DNA from: an uncultured Candidatus Saccharibacteria bacterium
Lineage (GTDB): Bacteria; Patescibacteriota; Saccharimonadia; Saccharimonadales; Saccharimonadaceae
Reading direction: 5' to 3'
NCBI GenBank assembly: GCA_947166125.1
Contig: CAMVCW010000003.1
Span: 1-64,000 of the forward strand
Length of the DNA: 64,000 bases
Under the pieces are notes generated by a model. It was not told the DNA's origin. It did not search any database and worked only from the letters and a program-made list of their open reading frames with translations. Positions 20,452-58,727 of this stretch are shown piece by piece. The position numbers and the translations under genes were made by a program. Position 1 is the stretch's first letter, and each line of letters starts with the position of its first letter.

Positions 20452-20877
20452 AATTGCAACGGGAAACCGCTATCCCATAATACTACCGGACCGTATTTTT
20501 CATTAATCCCGCCAGCGCTTTCTCTAAAATGCAACTTTACAAAAAGAGTTGGATGAGCCCACTCCTATATGATAGAAGTCCCATTAAAACCACTATTTTC
20601 TACGGGAAGTAGTGGCCAAAGCAGCTCTGGAATCCCCTCTATGGTTTGTGCGGTCCGGCAACGTCAACAACGGTAATCTCAACAATCCAGGCTCTGAAGC
20701 GAACTACTGGTCTAGTACGGTCAACAGCAGCAACAACGCCTACAACCTAAACTTCACGGCTACTAACGTTAACCCGGCCAACAACAACAACAGGAACAAC
20801 GGGAGGTCTGTGCGCTGCGTAGCGCGCTGATATTAGCTCCCTCTCTCCTCTCTTCTCCGCAACTCTTTTCTCCCCCA
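20452..20877 (+). ncRNA. DGR template RNA (predicted)
   Basis: Predicted transcript carrying a ~180-nt leader and the template repeat. AAAAGAGTTG at 20542-20551 is the exact complement of CAACTCTTTT at 20860-20869, so the ends can pair and close a ~310-nt loop around the template. In studied DGRs the flanks of the template are needed for RT binding and cDNA priming. The 3' end is not known; it may run antisense into the RT gene. No protein is proposed although a frame stays open through the repeat. Confidence 0.6.
20630..20869 (+). repeat. DGR template repeat (TR)
   Basis: 240 bp aligning without gaps to 22907-23146 (minus). By hand about 25 positions differ and all are A in this copy; C, G and T positions are identical. 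In the frame of the target it has 18 AAC and 2 AAT codons, the classic layout that diversifies residues without making stops. The last ~60 bp (GCGCTGCGTAGCGC and the pyrimidine-rich end) are identical in both copies, as expected for the homing region. Confidence 0.95.
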
Positions 20878-22044
20878 CTATTTTTCAAAAACCCAACCAT
20901 TCGCATCGAACACCTCTTTTTTTAATTTATTCGCATCTAAATGCATCATAATTCCCAGATACGAGACTATACTCTCAGTATCCTTATATCCATACATAAG
21001 CCCAATCGAAGCTAATCGAAACTTTTTCTGCAATCTATCGCTCGGGTACAAACAATGCGGATATACTCTTGCCCCCAAAAAACTCATCCCCTTTTTTACT
21101 TCTTGATAATATCGCTTCTGTTTATGTAAAGTTAGCCCGAGCTTTGCATTCAAAAAATACTCTATTCTTAATATATCACTTTTTAATTTTTCATATTCTT
21201 CTTCTGGCACCATAATAAAAAAATCATCCACATATCGTCCATAGTTCTTATATCCCAAATTATAAAAAACGAATCTATCTAATTGATCCAAATAAATATT
21301 TGACACCAACTGCGAAGTAAGGTTGCCAATTACTATACCTTGCCCTGGTGGCTGTCCAAAAAGACTCTTCTTTGGAGGCAATACTCCAGGACTCCAATTT
21401 ACTACCGGTCCACGCTTCCACGCTTTGCTTACCGGATCATCAAAAAGTACTCTTCGCCACAAAAAATCACAAATTTTATACATCTGGTATCCCATCCGAT
21501 CGTTCATTACGTCTTTAAATTGCTGCTTCAGCCCCCAACTCACGCGCTCATATAATTTCTCACGCGGCAAACTCATAAAATAGCCCCTTATATCTAGTTT
21601 TACAATGTATGCTTTTTTTGTATAATTATTAGTGACTTTTTGCATAAATTTTTGTGCACGTCTCATACCAAAAAGCGTCCCTTTTCCAACCCTACATGAA
21701 TAAGAATCATAAAGGAATCTTCTATCCCACCATCCCGCCTGCATATTGTAAAGAAAATGGTGCACTACCCTATCCCGAAACGGCGCCGCAAAAATTTCCC
21801 TTACCATCGGATCAAATATTACAAACGATACACTAGCACTTGGTTCATAACGATATTCCAATATCGAATCTCGTAAATTCACTAAATTTCTTAGCCAATG
21901 AAGCTCAAAGCTATGCTCATCGCATGTCTTGATCTTACCTTTCCTGGCTTCCGTAAATGCCGCCGTCAGCTCTTCCAGCAGCCACTGGCGTAATCCATCT
22001 CGATAAATCTTATCTACCTTATTTTCTGGATCGATCGGTTCCAC
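20878..22044 (-). CDS. DGR reverse transcriptase
   Basis: 388 residues. It copies the template RNA into cDNA with errors at adenines, and the cDNA replaces the variable region of the target. Seen: IFAAPFRDRVVHHFL (about 84-98), motif A KLDIRGYF with Asp151, the DGR-type IGNLTSQ at 239-245 in place of the group II intron-type QGxxxSP, catalytic YVDD at 271-274, and FLGARVYPH near 322-330. No maturase, endonuclease or integrase domain is present, which separates it from group II intron RTs. The ATG lies inside the last codons of the upstream avd-like gene (26-bp overlap), so the two are translationally coupled. Confidence 0.96.
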   Translation of the reverse strand: MEPIDPENKVDKIYRDGLRQWLLEELTAAFTEARKGKIKTCDEHSFELHWLRNLVNLRDSILEYRYEPSASVSFVIFDPMVREIFAAPFRDRVVHHFLYNMQAGWWDRRFLYDSYSCRVGKGTLFGMRRAQKFMQKVTNNYTKKAYIVKLDIRGYFMSLPREKLYERVSWGLKQQFKDVMNDRMGYQMYKICDFLWRRVLFDDPVSKAWKRGPVVNWSPGVLPPKKSLFGQPPGQGIVIGNLTSQLVSNIYLDQLDRFVFYNLGYKNYGRYVDDFFIMVPEEEYEKLKSDILRIEYFLNAKLGLTLHKQKRYYQEVKKGMSFLGARVYPHCLYPSDRLQKKFRLASIGLMYGYKDTESIVSYLGIMMHLDANKLKKEVFDANGWVFEK

Positions 22045-22861
22045 GTTTTATTTGTCTATCTATTCTTTTCTCTATATCCAGTACATTTTCGCCCACCTTC
22101 ATACAATTTTCCCTAGTCCATAATTTCAATCCTGCTACTATCTGCAATTCTATCAATAGCTGATGTATCGTCTGTCGCATTTCGCGCCAATATGGCAATA
22201 AATCTTCTGGTCTATTCCTCCCACACTCTGCCATTTTATAGTATGTTCGAATCACCTCATCCATTATATTCACCATCCGCTCGCCATTGGTAGCACTAGA
22301 AAGTTTATCCATCCTCCTATAACATATTCTATGTAGTCTAGTTGATACTTCTATTAATTTTTGATACAATGCCGGATCAATAAAGTCCACTTTTACGATG
22401 CTGTTTACTGCAAGTTGCCTAATACTCTCCTCATTTTTAATTCTGTCCAATTCTTCTTCAGTTAAAGCTTTTTTTAACTCAAAAATCATACACTTATCTT
22501 TTATCTGCTCTTTTTTATACAGTCCCACTTTTTCCAACCTGCTTCTTACCACATCAAATCCTCGTGTCCGTATTCTACCTATATCATACTGAATATAAAA
22601 ACTATCAAAATCATCAGTCATTGTCACCGGCACTCCTAGTGGTAAACACACCATATATTTATATATTAGTGCCGAATGTTCACTCATCTCACACCACCCC
22701 ATCTCACCATCACACGGTATTACCAAAATATACTTTCTATTGTTCGATTCAAACTTTATCGCTCTACGTTTGAGCCTATCGTATTCTTTTCTTTCTATTC
22801 TACCAATTTCTTCAAAACTTCTATTTTTAGTTTCATTTTTTTCATCCACTTTCATGGTCAT
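22019..22861 (-). CDS. DGR accessory protein, Avd-like helical domain with extra N-terminal domain
   Basis: 280 residues. The C-terminal ~115 residues (ALYQKLIEVSTRLHRICYRRM ... LLPYWREMRQTIHQLLIELQIV ... VLDIEKRIDRQIKRG) are predicted to form amphipathic helices like the Avd/four-helix-bundle proteins that bind the RT and template RNA. The first ~165 residues are a separate, mixed alpha/beta region (RKYILVIPCDGEMGWCEMSEHSALIYKYMV; FDSFYIQYDIGRIRTRGFDVVRSRLEKVGLYKK, a possible winged helix) that typical ~110-130-residue Avd proteins lack. Its position directly before the RT supports the role. The Avd assignment rests on context and helix pattern, not on a recognised signature. Confidence 0.75.
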   Translation of the reverse strand: MTMKVDEKNETKNRSFEEIGRIERKEYDRLKRRAIKFESNNRKYILVIPCDGEMGWCEMSEHSALIYKYMVCLPLGVPVTMTDDFDSFYIQYDIGRIRTRGFDVVRSRLEKVGLYKKEQIKDKCMIFELKKALTEEELDRIKNEESIRQLAVNSIVKVDFIDPALYQKLIEVSTRLHRICYRRMDKLSSATNGERMVNIMDEVIRTYYKMAECGRNRPEDLLPYWREMRQTIHQLLIELQIVAGLKLWTRENCMKVGENVLDIEKRIDRQIKRGTDRSRK

Positions 22862-22870
22862 ATCATAACC

Positions 22871-22876
22871 ATTATA
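22871..22876 (-). promoter_or_regulatory. -10 box for avd-RT
   Basis: Minus strand TGT-TATAAT, 9 nt before the ATG at 22861. It lets avd-RT be expressed apart from the target gene. Confidence 0.6.
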
Positions 22877-22906
22877 ACACCATTTTCCTATTCATCGGTC
22901 TCGACA

Positions 22907-23146
22907 AAAAGAGTTGCGGAGAAGAGAGGAGAGAGGGAGCTAATATCAGCGCGCTACGCAGCGCACAGACCACCCGCGGTACCTGAGGTTGCCGTTGGCC
23001 GGGTTAACGCCAGTAGCCGTGAAGTATAGGCCGTAGGCGTAGTAGCTGCTGAGGACCGTACTAGACCAGTAGTACGCTCCAGAGCCTGGATAGTTGAGAT
23101 TACCGTAGTAGACGTAGCCGGACCGCACAAACCATAGAGGGGACCC
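22907..23146 (-). repeat. DGR variable repeat (VR) in the target gene
   Basis: Counterpart of the template at 20630-20869. Template AAC codons appear here as TAC, GGC, CTC and CGC; an AGG became TGG and a GAA became GGG. It covers the last ~65 codons of the target plus 39 bp past the stop. Relative to the template it is an inverted repeat. Confidence 0.95.
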
Positions 23147-24583
23147 TATTAGTTTTTTATCATTATTAGTAATACCGTCGTTATAAAGACCGTTGACTCT
23201 GGCAAATTCACTAGTAGAATTTACTACGTTACCTTTGTATGAGATAGTGGGCAGTCTCCAGCCTTTAGGACAGATAGAGTTCTGTGGGTTCCTGTTAATA
23301 GCATCTGGATCACTAGTACTACCATAAGTAGAGTTTGTTAGGCTACTACTATCGTCACTAGCTATTGCTGCAGACCAGTTGTAGTAATTGCCTACAGATA
23401 GATGTCTATTGGCATTAGTTCTATCTTGAGTGAAATGTGCACAACCAGCGCTTGCATTGAGATAGTTGCAGTTTGGCGTACTATCATCGCCATCCCAATA
23501 CCATTCACCTGGATCTAGGGAGTAGGCTACATTATAAGAGTTAGCCCAATTAGTACCAGCCCCGGTAGCGGAATGCTTGGTAGTATTCTGTGGTGTCCAA
23601 GAAATCACATTTTTTGTAGCATCATAAGAATAATCTTTGCCGTATGCTCCAGCCATAGAGTTATCGTTAAGATCGGTATCATTAGAAGTTAAAGCGGTAT
23701 CTGGAGATAAATCTAGGTCTAGATTCTGCGTCATCCAACAATGTCCATCCTTCAGTTTAGTCACCCAGTACAGTTTATTGTCCCTAGTGTCCACCAAACG
23801 AATAGAGTTATTTTCATCAACCGAAGTTGCAGAGGAACAAATACTATTCTCCATATCCTGCATCTTGTAAAACTGTCCGCTATCCCCAGTCACCGGATCG
23901 GTTACTGTTATTTTCTGTTTTCCTGCCAAAGCAAAGGCATTCTCTAAAGTCGCAGTAGGTTGGGCTGCGGTAGATGGGTGAAGCATCACATATTTCACCT
24001 GTCCACTATATGTAGCGGCAGGCTGAGTGCTTATTGTATATACCGCATAAGTAGTATTGAAAGCCGAGTCCACACCAGTAGCCGTTCCGGCACCCAAAGA
24101 TGCTACCTTAGTCCACTGGTTCGGGACACTAGTATAATCCGTATATTCAGATACGATGCTAGGAGTATAATCACCAGTCCCGCTAGCAGTCAGCTTCATC
24201 GCCCAACTAGACGTACTGCCGCCGGCCGCTGCATCTCCAGTCTGAATATCAGACGCAGAACCCAACGTAGAAGCCAGGACATTAGATCCTTCAGTACCAC
24301 CAGTAGAGCCAATCGCATAAACCACATAGCCATTTTTATCATTACATGACGTATTAATCTTCGTTGCGCCAATATTTTCTATCCTCTGTCCGCTTACTAT
24401 AGAAGTCGTATGTGCAGACGTCAAAGTTCCAATCATGGTACAAGAAACAGGGATACGAACACTAACATTATCCAAAGCAGAATTATTCAACGCATACACA
24501 CAAGAATTGGCTAAACACGCACCGACAAGACTAGTCACGCCAACAAGCCCAGTCGCAATAATCCCCTTACTCATACCTCTCAT
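22946..24583 (-). CDS. DGR target: FISUMP-domain surface protein
   Basis: 545 residues. N-terminus MSKGIIATGLVGVTSLVGACLANSCVYA is a signal sequence or membrane anchor (the ATG at residue 4 is the alternative start). Residues ~40-220 form a Thr/Ser-rich region probably of beta structure; ~230-545 is the FISUMP domain: FYKMQDMENSICSS, LVDTRDNKLYWVTKLKDGHCWMTQNLDLDLS, VGNYYNWSAAIAS, ICPKGWRLP, YYWSSTV, and the end WSVRCVAR. The variable residues fall in the last ~65 positions, as in C-type-lectin-fold DGR targets, where they form the ligand-binding face. Likely an adhesin or receptor with a diversified tip, perhaps for host-cell attachment (inference). A TGG-TAGAAT box lies upstream near 24632. 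Confidence 0.93.
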   Translation of the reverse strand: MRGMSKGIIATGLVGVTSLVGACLANSCVYALNNSALDNVSVRIPVSCTMIGTLTSAHTTSIVSGQRIENIGATKINTSCNDKNGYVVYAIGSTGGTEGSNVLASTLGSASDIQTGDAAAGGSTSSWAMKLTASGTGDYTPSIVSEYTDYTSVPNQWTKVASLGAGTATGVDSAFNTTYAVYTISTQPAATYSGQVKYVMLHPSTAAQPTATLENAFALAGKQKITVTDPVTGDSGQFYKMQDMENSICSSATSVDENNSIRLVDTRDNKLYWVTKLKDGHCWMTQNLDLDLSPDTALTSNDTDLNDNSMAGAYGKDYSYDATKNVISWTPQNTTKHSATGAGTNWANSYNVAYSLDPGEWYWDGDDSTPNCNYLNASAGCAHFTQDRTNANRHLSVGNYYNWSAAIASDDSSSLTNSTYGSTSDPDAINRNPQNSICPKGWRLPTISYKGNVVNSTSEFARVNGLYNDGITNNDKKLIGSPLWFVRSGYVYYGNLNYPGSGAYYWSSTVLSSYYAYGLYFTATGVNPANGNLRYRGWSVRCVAR

Positions 24584-34230: not shown

Positions 34231-34471
34231 TATAATTAAATTGCTACATTTCGTTACAAACGCTAAGCGTTTTTAATATTCTACAATTTAATAATATGTC
34301 GAACAGTTTTAACGGCACCGTAAGGACCGAGTTGTTCGACATATGCTTAGCATATTTGCAACGAAGTGTAGCACCTTGCGGTGCCATTTTTGTATACGCC
34401 TTTTCATATATTACAAAGATGGCACCGCATCCTAAGTGAAAAACTCTAAGTGAGGTAAAAGGTAAAACAGG
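34231..34471 (+). ncRNA. FISUMP leader RNA, copy L1
   Basis: Fills most of the 328-nt gap 34144-34471. TGC-TATAAT (34231-34236) starts a ~230-nt leader. Helices: P1 34241-34255 with 34360-34373; P2 GCTAAGC 34262-34268 with 34345-34351; P3 34294-34305 with 34333-34344 (12 bp perfect). The P3 loop holds GGCACCGTAAGG (34314-34325), which can pair with CCTTGCGGTGCC (34374-34385) next to ATTTTT. That same strand can instead pair with ATGGCACCGCA (34419-34429), 11 bp perfect. The two pairings exclude each other. Copy L2 at 56964 keeps the layout with different stem sequences. Confidence 0.75.
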
Positions 34472-35932
34472 ATGCGGAAAATATACATATCATATATAGC
34501 AACAATTAGTATATTAAGTTTAGTATATATTAACAATACTTCTGCCTTAGACTATTCTAGTAATGTAGGCATAGGGTTTACCTTTAATCCTACATTATCT
34601 ATTAGTCTTAGCTCTAATGACTTAGTTATTTCTAATCTAGTTCCTGGTAGTATGGAAGATAGTAATAGTATTAATGTAAGTGTTGCTACTAATGCTTCAT
34701 ATGGATATATGTTATCTGCTAATGTAGGTGATGATATTCATAATAATAGCAATCTAACTCATAGCAATAACACTAATATATTTAGTAGTGTAGCCACAGA
34801 TGCAGATTTAGCTATTTTAACTACAGACAATACTTGGGGCTATAGTACTTCACTAGATAATGGTAGTAGTTGGAGTAATTATAATGGATTATCTAGTTCT
34901 ACTAGTACTACACTAATAGACAATAGTAATACTGCAGATAGTACTAGTAATATAGACTTTAAAATAGGGGCTAAAGCTAGTAGTACTCAGGCTAGTGGAA
35001 CTTATACTAATACCATTAACTTTATTGCAGTAACTAAGGTAGCACCTATGAGTTTATTAGATTCCTTTATAGCATCAGGAGCAGAACAATTAAATGGTTA
35101 TTATAAAATGCAGGATATGACACATGATATATGTAATAATGTAGATATAGAAGAATCAGAACTACAATTAATAGATATAAGAGACAATAAAGTATACTGG
35201 GTAGCTAAACTCAAAGATGGTAATTGTTGGATGACGCAGAATTTAGACTTAGACCTAGACAGTAACAGAACCTATACTCACTGGGATACGGATTTAGGGT
35301 GGAGTACGGAAGATGGTAGCACTGTAGATGAGAATGCTACTTGGAGACCTACCCACTCTACTATTGACTTTGATGGAGCTAATACCAACCAAGTACCGGG
35401 ATGGATTAATAGCAATACAGAACCATATTCTGCTAATCCTGGAGACATATATTATTATACTTCTAATTCAGATGCAGACGATATTAAGTATAATTCATTA
35501 CAAGAATGTATAACAGCGGGCCATAATGACTGCGCGCATTATCATACTGGAAATTATTATAATTGGAGTGTTGTTGTAGGGAGTAATGATACGAGTGGAA
35601 TAACGAGTGGGAGTGCGCCAGACTCCGTGTGCGCTAAAGGATGGAGATTGCCAAACAATAATTCTGCACATTTTCAATACCTAGCCAACCTTTACGAAAT
35701 AGCAATCAACACTTCTCTAAAATTACGCAATCAACCTCTATGGTTCACACGATCAGGCTATGTAAAAAATACTTCATCCAGTTTTCGTTCTTCATATGGA
35801 TTCTATTGGTCTAGCACAGCCAAAAATGGAACTAATTCATATCATTTATATTTTTATCGTTCATCATATAATGCATCATTTTTTTACTATGATAGATATT
35901 ATGGATTTTCCACACGTTGTATCGCTAGATAG
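34472..35932 (+). CDS. FISUMP-domain surface protein, AT-rich
   Basis: 486 residues. N-terminal hydrophobic segment (about 5-24, ISYIATISILSLVYINNTSA) is a signal peptide. Residues ~28-195 form a Ser/Thr/Asn-rich beta domain (VGIGFTFNPTLSISLSS ... ASGTYTNTINFIAVTK) shared with 57174-58727. Then the FISUMP domain: YYKMQDMTHDICNN, LIDIRDNKVYWVAKLKDGNCWMTQNLDLDL, TGNYYNWSVVVGS, VCAKGWRLP, FYWSSTA, and the end FSTRCIAR. The C-terminal block is one codon longer than the DGR template. Codon use is much more AT-rich than in the neighbours, so recent transfer or different selection is possible. Confidence 0.88.
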   Translation: MRKIYISYIATISILSLVYINNTSALDYSSNVGIGFTFNPTLSISLSSNDLVISNLVPGSMEDSNSINVSVATNASYGYMLSANVGDDIHNNSNLTHSNNTNIFSSVATDADLAILTTDNTWGYSTSLDNGSSWSNYNGLSSSTSTTLIDNSNTADSTSNIDFKIGAKASSTQASGTYTNTINFIAVTKVAPMSLLDSFIASGAEQLNGYYKMQDMTHDICNNVDIEESELQLIDIRDNKVYWVAKLKDGNCWMTQNLDLDLDSNRTYTHWDTDLGWSTEDGSTVDENATWRPTHSTIDFDGANTNQVPGWINSNTEPYSANPGDIYYYTSNSDADDIKYNSLQECITAGHNDCAHYHTGNYYNWSVVVGSNDTSGITSGSAPDSVCAKGWRLPNNNSAHFQYLANLYEIAINTSLKLRNQPLWFTRSGYVKNTSSSFRSSYGFYWSSTAKNGTNSYHLYFYRSSYNASFFYYDRYYGFSTRCIAR

Positions 35933-56963: not shown

Positions 56964-57173
56964 TATAATAAAAGAGCAAAACTACAATTCGTGATCGAAG
57001 GTTTTTTAACCATTTGGTCCACAATAAATACGGCACCGTAAGGAACCGATTGTGGACACCTTTGGTCAAACAATTGTAGTTTTGCACCCCTTGCGGTGCC
57101 ATTTTTGTATACGCCTTTTCAAAACAAATATGGCACCGCAACCGAACAACTCTAAGCGAGGTAAAACAACATA
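56964..57173 (+). ncRNA. FISUMP leader RNA, copy L2
   Basis: TGG-TATAAT (56964-56969) starts a ~200-nt leader. P1: 56976-56989 with 57072-57085 (14 bp perfect, sequence unlike L1). P2: GATCGAAGG with CCTTTGGTC. P3: GTCCACAAT with ATTGTGGAC. The P3 loop has GGCACCGTAAGG (57032-57043); CCTTGCGGTGCC (57089-57100) can pair with it, or with ATGGCACCGCA (57130-57140). GTATACGCCTTTTCA and ACTCTAAGcGAGGTAAAA are shared with L1. Confidence 0.75.
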
Positions 57174-58727
57174 ATGCGGCGTAAGAAAAACATAATATTA
57201 AATTCAAGAAACATAACACCCCATTTTACAGGGAAAGAAAAAATCATAACATTGGTTTTTACAATCATAATGTTAACTTTTGCAAACATAATAAATATTT
57301 CCGCCTTAAGTTATCGAAGTAATGTAGGGGTAAGTTTCACCTTTAACCCCACACTTTCCATTAATATTTCACCTTCAAATCTAACAATAGATAATCTCAC
57401 TCCGGGCACCACTAGCGATAGTAATGTAATTAATATTTCCGTAGCTACTAACGCAGCATACGGCTATACCTTATCCGCCATAATGGACGGTAATAATAGC
57501 AATCTAACTCATAATAATGGAGCCAACGTATTTAGCAGTATAACCACAGATGCCGGTTTATCTAGTTTAACTACAGATAATACTTGGGGATATAGCTATA
57601 AACTCTCAAATGATACTAATTGGAATAATTATTCTGGCCTATCTACTGAAACCAGTAAAACCTTAGTTGATTCAAACGATCAAACTGTTATACCAATAGA
57701 CTTTAAAATAGCGGCTAAAGCCAGTAATACTCAAGCTAGCGGAACTTATACTGGAACTATCAACTTTACTACAGTGACAAAACCTAAGCCTATTAGCTTA
57801 GCTGATGCTTACGCTTCAGCGGGTAAAACTATGCACAATGGATATTATGTAATGCAAGATATGACTTCTGCTATTTGTAATAGTGTAGAAGATATTGGTG
57901 CTCAATTACAAGTTATAGACATTCGTGATGATAAAGTCTACTGGATATCTAAGTTGGCGGATAATCATTGTTGGATGACGCAGAACTTAGACTTAGATTT
58001 ATCACCAGGAAAACCCCTAACATCTTACGACTCAGACTTATCTACAGATGCTAACGTATATACAAACACCAGTGAAGAAGGTCCGTATGCTTTAAAAAAA
58101 GATAACGAAGAATATGGATATATATACAACAATGGTGCTAGCACTTGGATACCAGAAAGGTCAACAATAGCCTATAACAATTTGAACTCGACTACCTGGC
58201 AAAACAGCTTAGACCACCCATATTCATATGACTATTTAGACGCCAACGGGAATCCAGTTTATCCAGATACTGACGCTACAAAAGAAATCGCCGGCAACCA
58301 TGGGTTCTCTGGTAATTACTATAATTGGAGTGCAACTATAGCCAGTAATAATTCTAGCGTATTAACAACTGGCACAGCTGGTGATACTACAAAAAATCCA
58401 AAGAATTCAATCTGTCCAAAAAATTGGCGACTACCCATTATAACCTATAGCAACTCAACAAACGAATTTGCAATTTTAAACAACTTATATAATAACGGGC
58501 TTGCTAATACTTCTACAGGATTAGTCACGTCCCCACTATGGCTCATAAAGGCTGGGTCTACCAGTTCGGGTAGCGTAAGCTCGAATTGGGGATTCTACAG
58601 GTCTAGCACCGTATACGGCGAATTTCAGACCTTAATTATGAGATTTGGCACCAACAACGTATATACTAGCGAAATACCTTACGGTACAAAAGAATCAGGT
58701 TTCTCTATCCGTTGCCTCGCCCGGTAG
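57174..58727 (+). CDS. FISUMP-domain surface protein
   Basis: 517 residues. An N-terminal basic stretch then a membrane/signal helix (about 25-48, IITLVFTIIMLTFANIINISA). Residues ~52-215 are the beta domain also found in 34472-35932 (VGVSFTFNPTLSINISPS ... ASGTYTGTINFTTVTK). FISUMP domain: YYVMQDMTSAICNS, VIDIRDDKVYWISKLADNHCWMTQNLDLDLS, SGNYYNWSATIAS, ICPKNWRLP, the end FSIRCLAR. Its C-terminal block is the most divergent: YRSSTV replaces YWSSTV. Driven by leader L2. Confidence 0.88.
   Translation: MRRKKNIILNSRNITPHFTGKEKIITLVFTIIMLTFANIINISALSYRSNVGVSFTFNPTLSINISPSNLTIDNLTPGTTSDSNVINISVATNAAYGYTLSAIMDGNNSNLTHNNGANVFSSITTDAGLSSLTTDNTWGYSYKLSNDTNWNNYSGLSTETSKTLVDSNDQTVIPIDFKIAAKASNTQASGTYTGTINFTTVTKPKPISLADAYASAGKTMHNGYYVMQDMTSAICNSVEDIGAQLQVIDIRDDKVYWISKLADNHCWMTQNLDLDLSPGKPLTSYDSDLSTDANVYTNTSEEGPYALKKDNEEYGYIYNNGASTWIPERSTIAYNNLNSTTWQNSLDHPYSYDYLDANGNPVYPDTDATKEIAGNHGFSGNYYNWSATIASNNSSVLTTGTAGDTTKNPKNSICPKNWRLPIITYSNSTNEFAILNNLYNNGLANTSTGLVTSPLWLIKAGSTSSGSVSSNWGFYRSSTVYGEFQTLIMRFGTNNVYTSEIPYGTKESGFSIRCLAR

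Follow-up and report, generated by a model that had tools for sequence, protein, structure and literature searches.

A putative attenuator-type leader RNA upstream of surface-protein and other genes in Saccharibacteria and other Patescibacteria

Two leader regions in the window, i.e. the 64,000-nucleotide stretch of Saccharibacteria DNA that was analysed, were judged from sequence comparison to belong to a previously uncatalogued class of leader that is of the transcription-attenuator type or resembles a riboswitch. The narrower reading, a new class of cis-acting Patescibacteria leader RNA working as a transcription attenuator, is favoured here with moderate confidence, and the leader probably decides whether the gene downstream of it is transcribed. 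The first leader, L1 (34231-34471), adjoins the 5' side of an open reading frame for a secreted FISUMP-domain protein of 486 amino acids (34472-35932; TIGR02145 E = 1.3e-9, just under the cut-off). The second, L2 (56964-57173), lies upstream of a gene for another secreted FISUMP-domain protein of 517 amino acids (57174-58727; TIGR02145 E = 4.6e-7, below the cut-off). All features of both leaders are on the plus strand.

L1 starts with the -10 box TATAAT (extended, TGCTATAAT; 34231-34236), which was absent from the list of a generic promoter scan (no -35 match). The 5' strand of helix P1 (34243-34256), with the predicted transcription start at 34243, is complementary to the 3' strand (34359-34372) in a fixed 14-bp register. 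In the minimum-energy fold the P2 strand GCTAAGC (34262-34268) pairs with GCTTAGC (34345-34351), and the 5' strand of P3 (GTCGAACA, 34298-34305) has its partner at 34333-34340. The loop of P3 contains strand 1 (GGCACCGTAAGG, 34314-34325), the putative pseudoknot partner of strand 2 (CCTTGCGGTGCC, 34374-34385). Strand 2 is common to the pseudoknot, to a predicted local terminator and to an alternative pairing with strand 3 (ATGGCACCGCA, 34419-34429); strand 3 may also pair with the start codon. The local terminator GCACC-UUGC-GGUGC-CA-UUUUU was detected by a terminator scan at 34371-34391, with the U-run at 34387-34391, and the final bases GC of P1 double as part of it.

The elements of both leaders follow one another in the order -10 box, P1 5' strand, P2 5' strand, bulge, P3 5' strand and loop with strand 1, continuing with the 3' strands of P3, P2 and P1, ACC(CC), strand 2, ATTTTT, strand 3, Shine-Dalgarno sequence and ATG. 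The bulge between the 5' strands of P2 and P3 frequently contains UUUUA, and a small hairpin is possible there in some copies. In L2 the -10 box was found at 56964-56969, strand 1 at 57032-57043 and strand 2 at 57089-57100 (both by sequence and structural alignment), and strand 3 at 57130-57140. The part of L2 from P1 to the end of the U-run (56976-57106) scored 96.6 bits (E = 5.6e-21) with a covariance model that had L2 in its training set. As described in the first-pass annotation, the two leaders share this layout while P1, P2 and P3 are swapped for other complementary pairs. The folding z-score was -5.9 for each leader, and none of 200 shuffled sequences was equally stable.

P1 begins 12 nt after the first T of the -10 box in both leaders. 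The same distance was found in 125 of 158 copies and, judged by eye, in a second class of Patescibacteria. The predicted transcription start thus coincides with the beginning of P1.

A 22-base pattern, allowing up to three mismatches, matched 34 places in the 0.82-Mb genome to which the window belongs, while the reversed pattern matched none. A covariance model search of the same genome gave 39 true copies, L1 and L2 included; four antisense matches overlapped sense copies and were discarded as stem ghosts. Such a search was the test that the first-pass annotation had set for itself, and the helices were intact in the copies newly found. A reading frame followed in 31 of the 34 copies fetched (two of the 31 frames were cut), and the other three copies ran off the contig end. 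The complete downstream proteins had about 490-660 amino acids and mostly finished in the FISUMP signature (..VRCVAR); the genome contained 34 FISUMP (PF09603) matches. Several contigs of this genome broke within leader copies, as repeats would cause (contigs C1, positions 1-46, and C4, positions 1-44, and the ends of C2 and C5), and contig starts in three further genomes (G231, G998 and G1004) also fell inside leader copies. Because of such assembly breaks, copy numbers in draft genomes are probably underestimates.

The sequences of P1, P2 and P3 differed in every copy, and complementarity was kept. In a structural alignment of 24 copies from this genome, in which P1 was placed from the promoter and ACC and variable stretches were padded with N, 98.9% of the cells of P1, P3 and the pseudoknot were paired. 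Double changes amounted to 199, compared with 54 +/- 6 in shuffles, and only about 40% of cells were paired when the partners were slid by 1-3 columns. A set of 26 diverse members, in which another Patescibacteria class was represented, had 99.0% of its cells paired and 281 double-change cells vs. 81 in shuffles; here the places of P2, P3 and strand 1 had been located by best match. As the copies are related, these cell counts do not represent independent events. Since the position of P3 had been optimised, partners were also swapped between copies: all eight P3 pairs formed in 31 of 34 real cases but in 2.5% with swapped partners, and at least 13 of the 14 pairs of P1, which has a fixed register, formed in 34 of 34 real cases but in 2.9% after swapping. 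In the U.G wobbles of P1 the U was always on the 5' strand and the G on the 3' strand, and 23 of 37 were at pair 8 or 9. By this covariation the leader is a real structured RNA, as the first-pass annotation had proposed, and it has the conserved, structured 5' domain expected of a riboswitch.

The pairing of strand 1 in the P3 loop with strand 2 directly after P1, also part of the initial description, was found in 100% of cells in the 24 copies and in 99.2% in the 26 diverse members. Four of its pairs were doubly changed in the latter set, in 8, 3, 7 and 10 sequences. In a 15-member set 99.3% of pseudoknot cells were paired, vs. 59% in a control mis-registered by three columns.

Strand 2 can alternatively pair, through GGUGY, with the end of P1 and the adjacent ACC, giving a local hairpin that is followed by the U-run. 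ACC and GGUG were unchanged in 161 copies, although the search pattern for copies itself required them. ACC was kept even where it lies outside the pseudoknot helix (L123 and L125). The outer pair of the hairpin changed in step between G-C and A-U: among 158 copies the penultimate base of P1 and the pyrimidine of GGUGY read GC/CC in 91 and AC/TC in 47, vs. AC/CC in 17 and GC/TC in one. In two copies found by the covariance model, L255 (GACAACC:GGUUGUC) and L270 (GACACCCC:GGGGUGUC), both sides of the hairpin and strand 1 were altered together. The U-run comprised at least five residues in 145 of 158 copies, a proportion inflated by the demand for TTTTT in the scan of named genomes. A terminator-like hairpin with a U-run thus lies between promoter and gene (34371-34391 in the scan of L1), the arrangement of an intrinsic-terminator attenuator. 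The U-run most likely belongs to this small local hairpin, in which case pseudoknot and terminator would compete for strand 2. The nearest-neighbour energies, about -7 to -7.6 kcal/mol for the local hairpin, about 7 kcal/mol for opening three pairs of P1 and about -17.6 kcal/mol for the pseudoknot duplex before any pseudoknot penalty, indicate that the states can compete. The expression platform and the folded domain, both conserved, are thus mutually exclusive at the sequence level, as in a riboswitch, and the comparison supports the first-pass proposal of exclusive pairings with attenuator-like logic.

The same proposal had taken the helix of strands 1 and 2, followed by ATTTTT, for the terminator. 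This helix does abut the U-run, but the local hairpin fits a terminator better, given the invariant ACC and the covarying outer pair. Nevertheless the local hairpin has no more than 5-6 pairs, the outermost of which is a mismatch in the 17 copies with GGUGCC, while the pseudoknot helix, being flush with the U-run, might itself terminate. Such a pseudoknotted or long-loop terminator would lie between an A-tract and a U-tract and be relieved by strand 3 or by a factor that takes strand 2. The helix has 10-12 G/C-rich pairs, and A-rich sequence precedes strand 1; its pair beside the U-run covaries from C:G to G:C in 8 of 26 sequences, and this reading would give strand 3 a clear job. However, the polymerase reaches strand 3 only when it has already passed the U-run, and strand 3 is undetectable in about two-thirds of the downstream clusters, so that many members would be without relief, and the invariant ACC and the linkage of the P1 end with GGUGC/GGUGUC would be left unexplained. 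We consider this explanation unlikely.

The further alternative noted at first, the pairing of strand 2 with strand 3, proved to be real but accessory. In 23 of 72 downstream clusters, among them the main FISUMP families of the own genus and some others, strand 2 had a partner beyond the U-run that outscored 95% of shuffles. In the downstream family of L1 the duplex of strands 2 and 3 reached -19.0 kcal/mol, compared with -9.9 kcal/mol in shuffles, and in L143 and L207 the match appeared perfect by eye over about 15 bp. As it was significant in only 23 clusters, strand 3 is, on these comparisons, an accessory that belongs chiefly to the FISUMP branch. In L1 its pairing with the start region was striking (CCGCAUCC:GGAUGCGG; p = 0.025 for the family). 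As a general rule, start-codon sequestration by strand 3 was rejected as too weak, with p <= 0.05 in 5 of 26 clusters and a mean of -9.1 vs. -7.5 kcal/mol for mismatched combinations. One further locus, L221, has no P1 and was left out of the class; its strand 2 forms, together with a perfect strand 3, a long inverted repeat close to a reading frame resembling that of ribosomal protein S12.

The competing pairings of strand 2, the U-run and the balanced energies lead to the attenuator model. By sequence comparison, the promoter sets the start of the RNA at P1, the stem consists of P1, P2 and P3, and the loop strand of P3 pairs with the strand directly after P1 to give the pseudoknot. If the pseudoknot is formed or stabilised, be it by a ligand, a protein or another RNA, no terminator would arise and the gene would be read. 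Without it, strand 2 would form the hairpin with the end of P1 and ACC, followed by five U, and transcription would stop after about 150 nt. In the FISUMP branch strand 3 may compete for strand 2 as well and at times mask the start codon, which might add a translational layer.

Reading of the same RNA by a dedicated RNA-binding protein, as an antitermination or stability element, instead of by a small ligand is possible, if somewhat doubtful, and concerns the trigger only. RNAs recognised by proteins typically combine conserved loops with stems of free sequence; the leader precedes up to 39 genes of a single family in one genome, and the downstream genes elsewhere have no common metabolite. 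On the other hand, the conserved residues that stay unpaired are not the same in the FISUMP branch as in the other branch (UAARCA, GUGAAUGG). The downstream genes have no pathway in common, and none points to a ligand.

A complete unit of promoter, structure and terminator, with core strands common to all copies of a genome and stems private to each, could also be a standalone trans-acting small RNA of about 150 nt, with incidental readthrough into the gene. A same-strand gene, however, lies within about 20-240 nt of nearly every readable copy, and in nearly all branches a reading frame begins soon after the U-run; a purely trans-acting RNA is accordingly rated improbable. It is also conceivable, as a speculative idea to which we give a very low probability, that the 39 leaders make up one RNA-only network. 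Terminated RNAs of about 150 nt would then cross-pair in trans via the core of strands 1, 2 and 3, so that expression of the surface proteins would be coordinated or mutually exclusive, and the private, rapidly rewritten P2 and P3 would confine cross-pairing to the core.

The leader is widespread in Saccharibacteria and present in at least one other class of the ultra-small Patescibacteria. It was found in 17 of 38 genomes at the genus level, several of which had 8-19 copies, in 25 of 151 at the family level and in 85 of 393, from 33 genera, at the class level. In a second Patescibacteria class 8 of 240 genomes were flagged, one of them by a match (L278) that reads as a plain terminator. The large scans scored only 10-21 candidates per genome, so that these counts are lower bounds. 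No leader was found in seven genomes of other bacteria. One weak match came from an Oscillospiraceae bin that is likely misbinned, and single leaders in rabbit-gut MAGs ('Lapin') assigned to Clostridia/Oscillospiraceae (L162, L172 and L210) are most likely on misbinned Saccharibacteria contigs. Nearly all named copies were from Candidatus Saccharibacteria, many of them from ruminant gut. Three matches (L258, L264 and L278) were discarded as plain terminators. A viral origin or spread was rejected: of ten pattern matches on viral contigs, the nine that were checked (all but L248) were ordinary terminators without P1 and strand 1.

The downstream genes qualify the original designation as a FISUMP leader. 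The readable copies of the own genome do precede secreted FISUMP-type proteins, a family of variable surface proteins, but elsewhere, in Saccharibacteria and in the second Patescibacteria class, the leader also precedes restriction-modification, T4SS-pilin and envelope genes. The non-FISUMP set comprised 51 distinct proteins without a metabolic theme. Eight belonged to restriction-modification or defence (four N6/N4 methyltransferases, a cytosine methylase, Tsp45I, an HsdR N-terminus and GmrSD), and there were two T4SS pilins, three OmpA, three DUF4352 and several small TM2-like membrane proteins, the latter named by eye.

In 22 pairs the same locus could be compared between the own genome and related MAGs, and the leaders were identical or nearly so in six. 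In the other 16 pairs mean identity was 0.92-0.95 for P1, 0.92 for the loop, 0.98 for strand 2 and 0.89 for the 1-kb flanks, compared with 0.67-0.68 for P2 and 0.52-0.53 for P3 (0.40 in unrelated paralogs). Single P3 values are noisy, as the windows had 8 nt. In most same-locus comparisons P2 and P3 are thus rewritten, while P1, the loop and the flanks are kept. The contrast was sharpest in L022/L237, with 0.99 in the flanks, 0.95 just upstream and 0.25-0.40 in P3; L028/L160, one of the 16 differing pairs, retained P3. Shuffling of P2/P3 modules between leaders was rejected, as no donor was found among 117 leaders.

Similarity at shared loci often broke off at +16 to +48 from TTGCGG, and such an abrupt end just 3' of the leader indicates that the gene was swapped. 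In L022/L237 the gene was replaced and similarity returned in the downstream flank at +1930. Together with the upstream flank staying similar, these breaks would suit a conserved core that is mainly a DNA recombination site, folded like attC, with gene cassettes exchanged beside it. Integron attC sites likewise combine conserved structure with free stem sequence and adjoining exchangeable genes. The leader, in contrast, sits 5' of the gene inside a promoter-terminator unit, with P1 at a fixed distance from the -10 box and a U-run followed by a reading frame. The core RYYYAAC/GTTRRRY was not found, the P1 ends not fitting GTTRRRY and the P1 pairs varying freely, and no motif was shared after the genes, at the 3' ends of the presumed cassettes. 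Ordinary homologous recombination over the shared leader sequence can explain the swaps, and we regard a recombination site as highly improbable.

The window also contains a diversity-generating retroelement (DGR) at 20612-24583. Its template repeat (20612-20830) is on the plus strand, and its other parts are on the minus strand: a reverse transcriptase (20878-22044), an accessory open reading frame (22019-22861) and a FISUMP variable protein (22946-24583). In the variable repeat 25 of 63 template adenines were changed, vs. 12 of the 156 remaining bases. DGRs are known to target FISUMP domains (PMC4159848). Several genes behind leaders are similar to this variable protein. The 3' ends of the FISUMP genes of seven leaders (L027, L022, L026, L040, L020, L023 and L033) resembled the template repeat, with an adenine change of 0.41-0.54 vs. 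0.18-0.31, and these genes may be past or remote DGR targets. An insert bounded by AATTCATTA and TTAATGAATT was found between strand 3 and the gene in two own copies (L014 and L024) and in L144, L151, L153, L168, L183 and L216; hairpin-rich in the copies read, it looks like a small mobile MITE-like element. In the own copy L019 a different hairpin-rich insert (ATCTTAGTGGGTCC...GTCACCCGCTAAGAT) occupied that place, separating strand 3 from the start codon, and the start of an insert in L225 was similar.

No Rfam family (release 15) matched the leader at gathering or permissive thresholds, the only hits being tRNAs and sub-threshold chance matches to miRNAs, in keeping with the initial statement that no described class was known. 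The open-access literature, incompletely covered, yielded no description of such an RNA, an absence that is no proof of novelty. Among known systems, the ZTP and preQ1-I riboswitches couple a pseudoknotted aptamer to a downstream intrinsic terminator. For the fluoride riboswitch, too, coupling between the folding of a pseudoknotted aptamer and an intrinsic terminator a short way downstream is described (PMC11077080). The leader resembles all three in having a pseudoknot and an adjacent terminator platform, but its sequence and architecture differ, the distal loop of a P1-P2-P3 stem folding back to the base of P1, and it precedes surface, restriction-modification and pilus genes and has no Rfam match. 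In type III toxin-antitoxin systems (ToxI/CptI), which are sometimes related to defence, a gene is likewise preceded by a pseudoknot RNA and an intervening terminator. Strand 3 (TGGCACCGC) resembles the T-box sequence TGGNACCGC, and the leader, too, has alternative pairings; no T-box covariance-model match was found in the L1 region (E up to 5) or in 14 related loci (E up to 0.5), and unlike in T-boxes the downstream genes are not aminoacyl-tRNA related and strand 3 is not universal. In type III systems the antitoxin is described as a series of RNA repeats by which an endoribonuclease toxin is inhibited (PMC8860590), whereas the leader is a single unit of about 150 nt before unrelated genes. 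No ToxN/AbiQ-type endoribonuclease was present among the Pfam families listed (25 of 32) for 50 downstream proteins, no tandem repeats were seen, and this candidate was rejected. The main text of a human-microbiome catalogue of candidate structured RNAs does not mention Saccharibacteria (PMC8040213).

The rapid rewriting of P2 and P3 with complementarity retained, where flanking identity is as high as 99%, is unusual for a regulatory RNA and calls for a special mutational or recombination process or for strong diversifying selection. If the leader acts as proposed, up to 39 surface-protein genes of a probably epibiotic bacterium with a 0.82-Mb genome would be under one RNA switch, which elsewhere in Patescibacteria would govern restriction-modification and T4SS-pilin genes. 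According to a recent perspective, an inducible expression system for Patescibacteria still needs to be developed (PMC11665869); the leader offers a directly testable handle on gene regulation in these bacteria.
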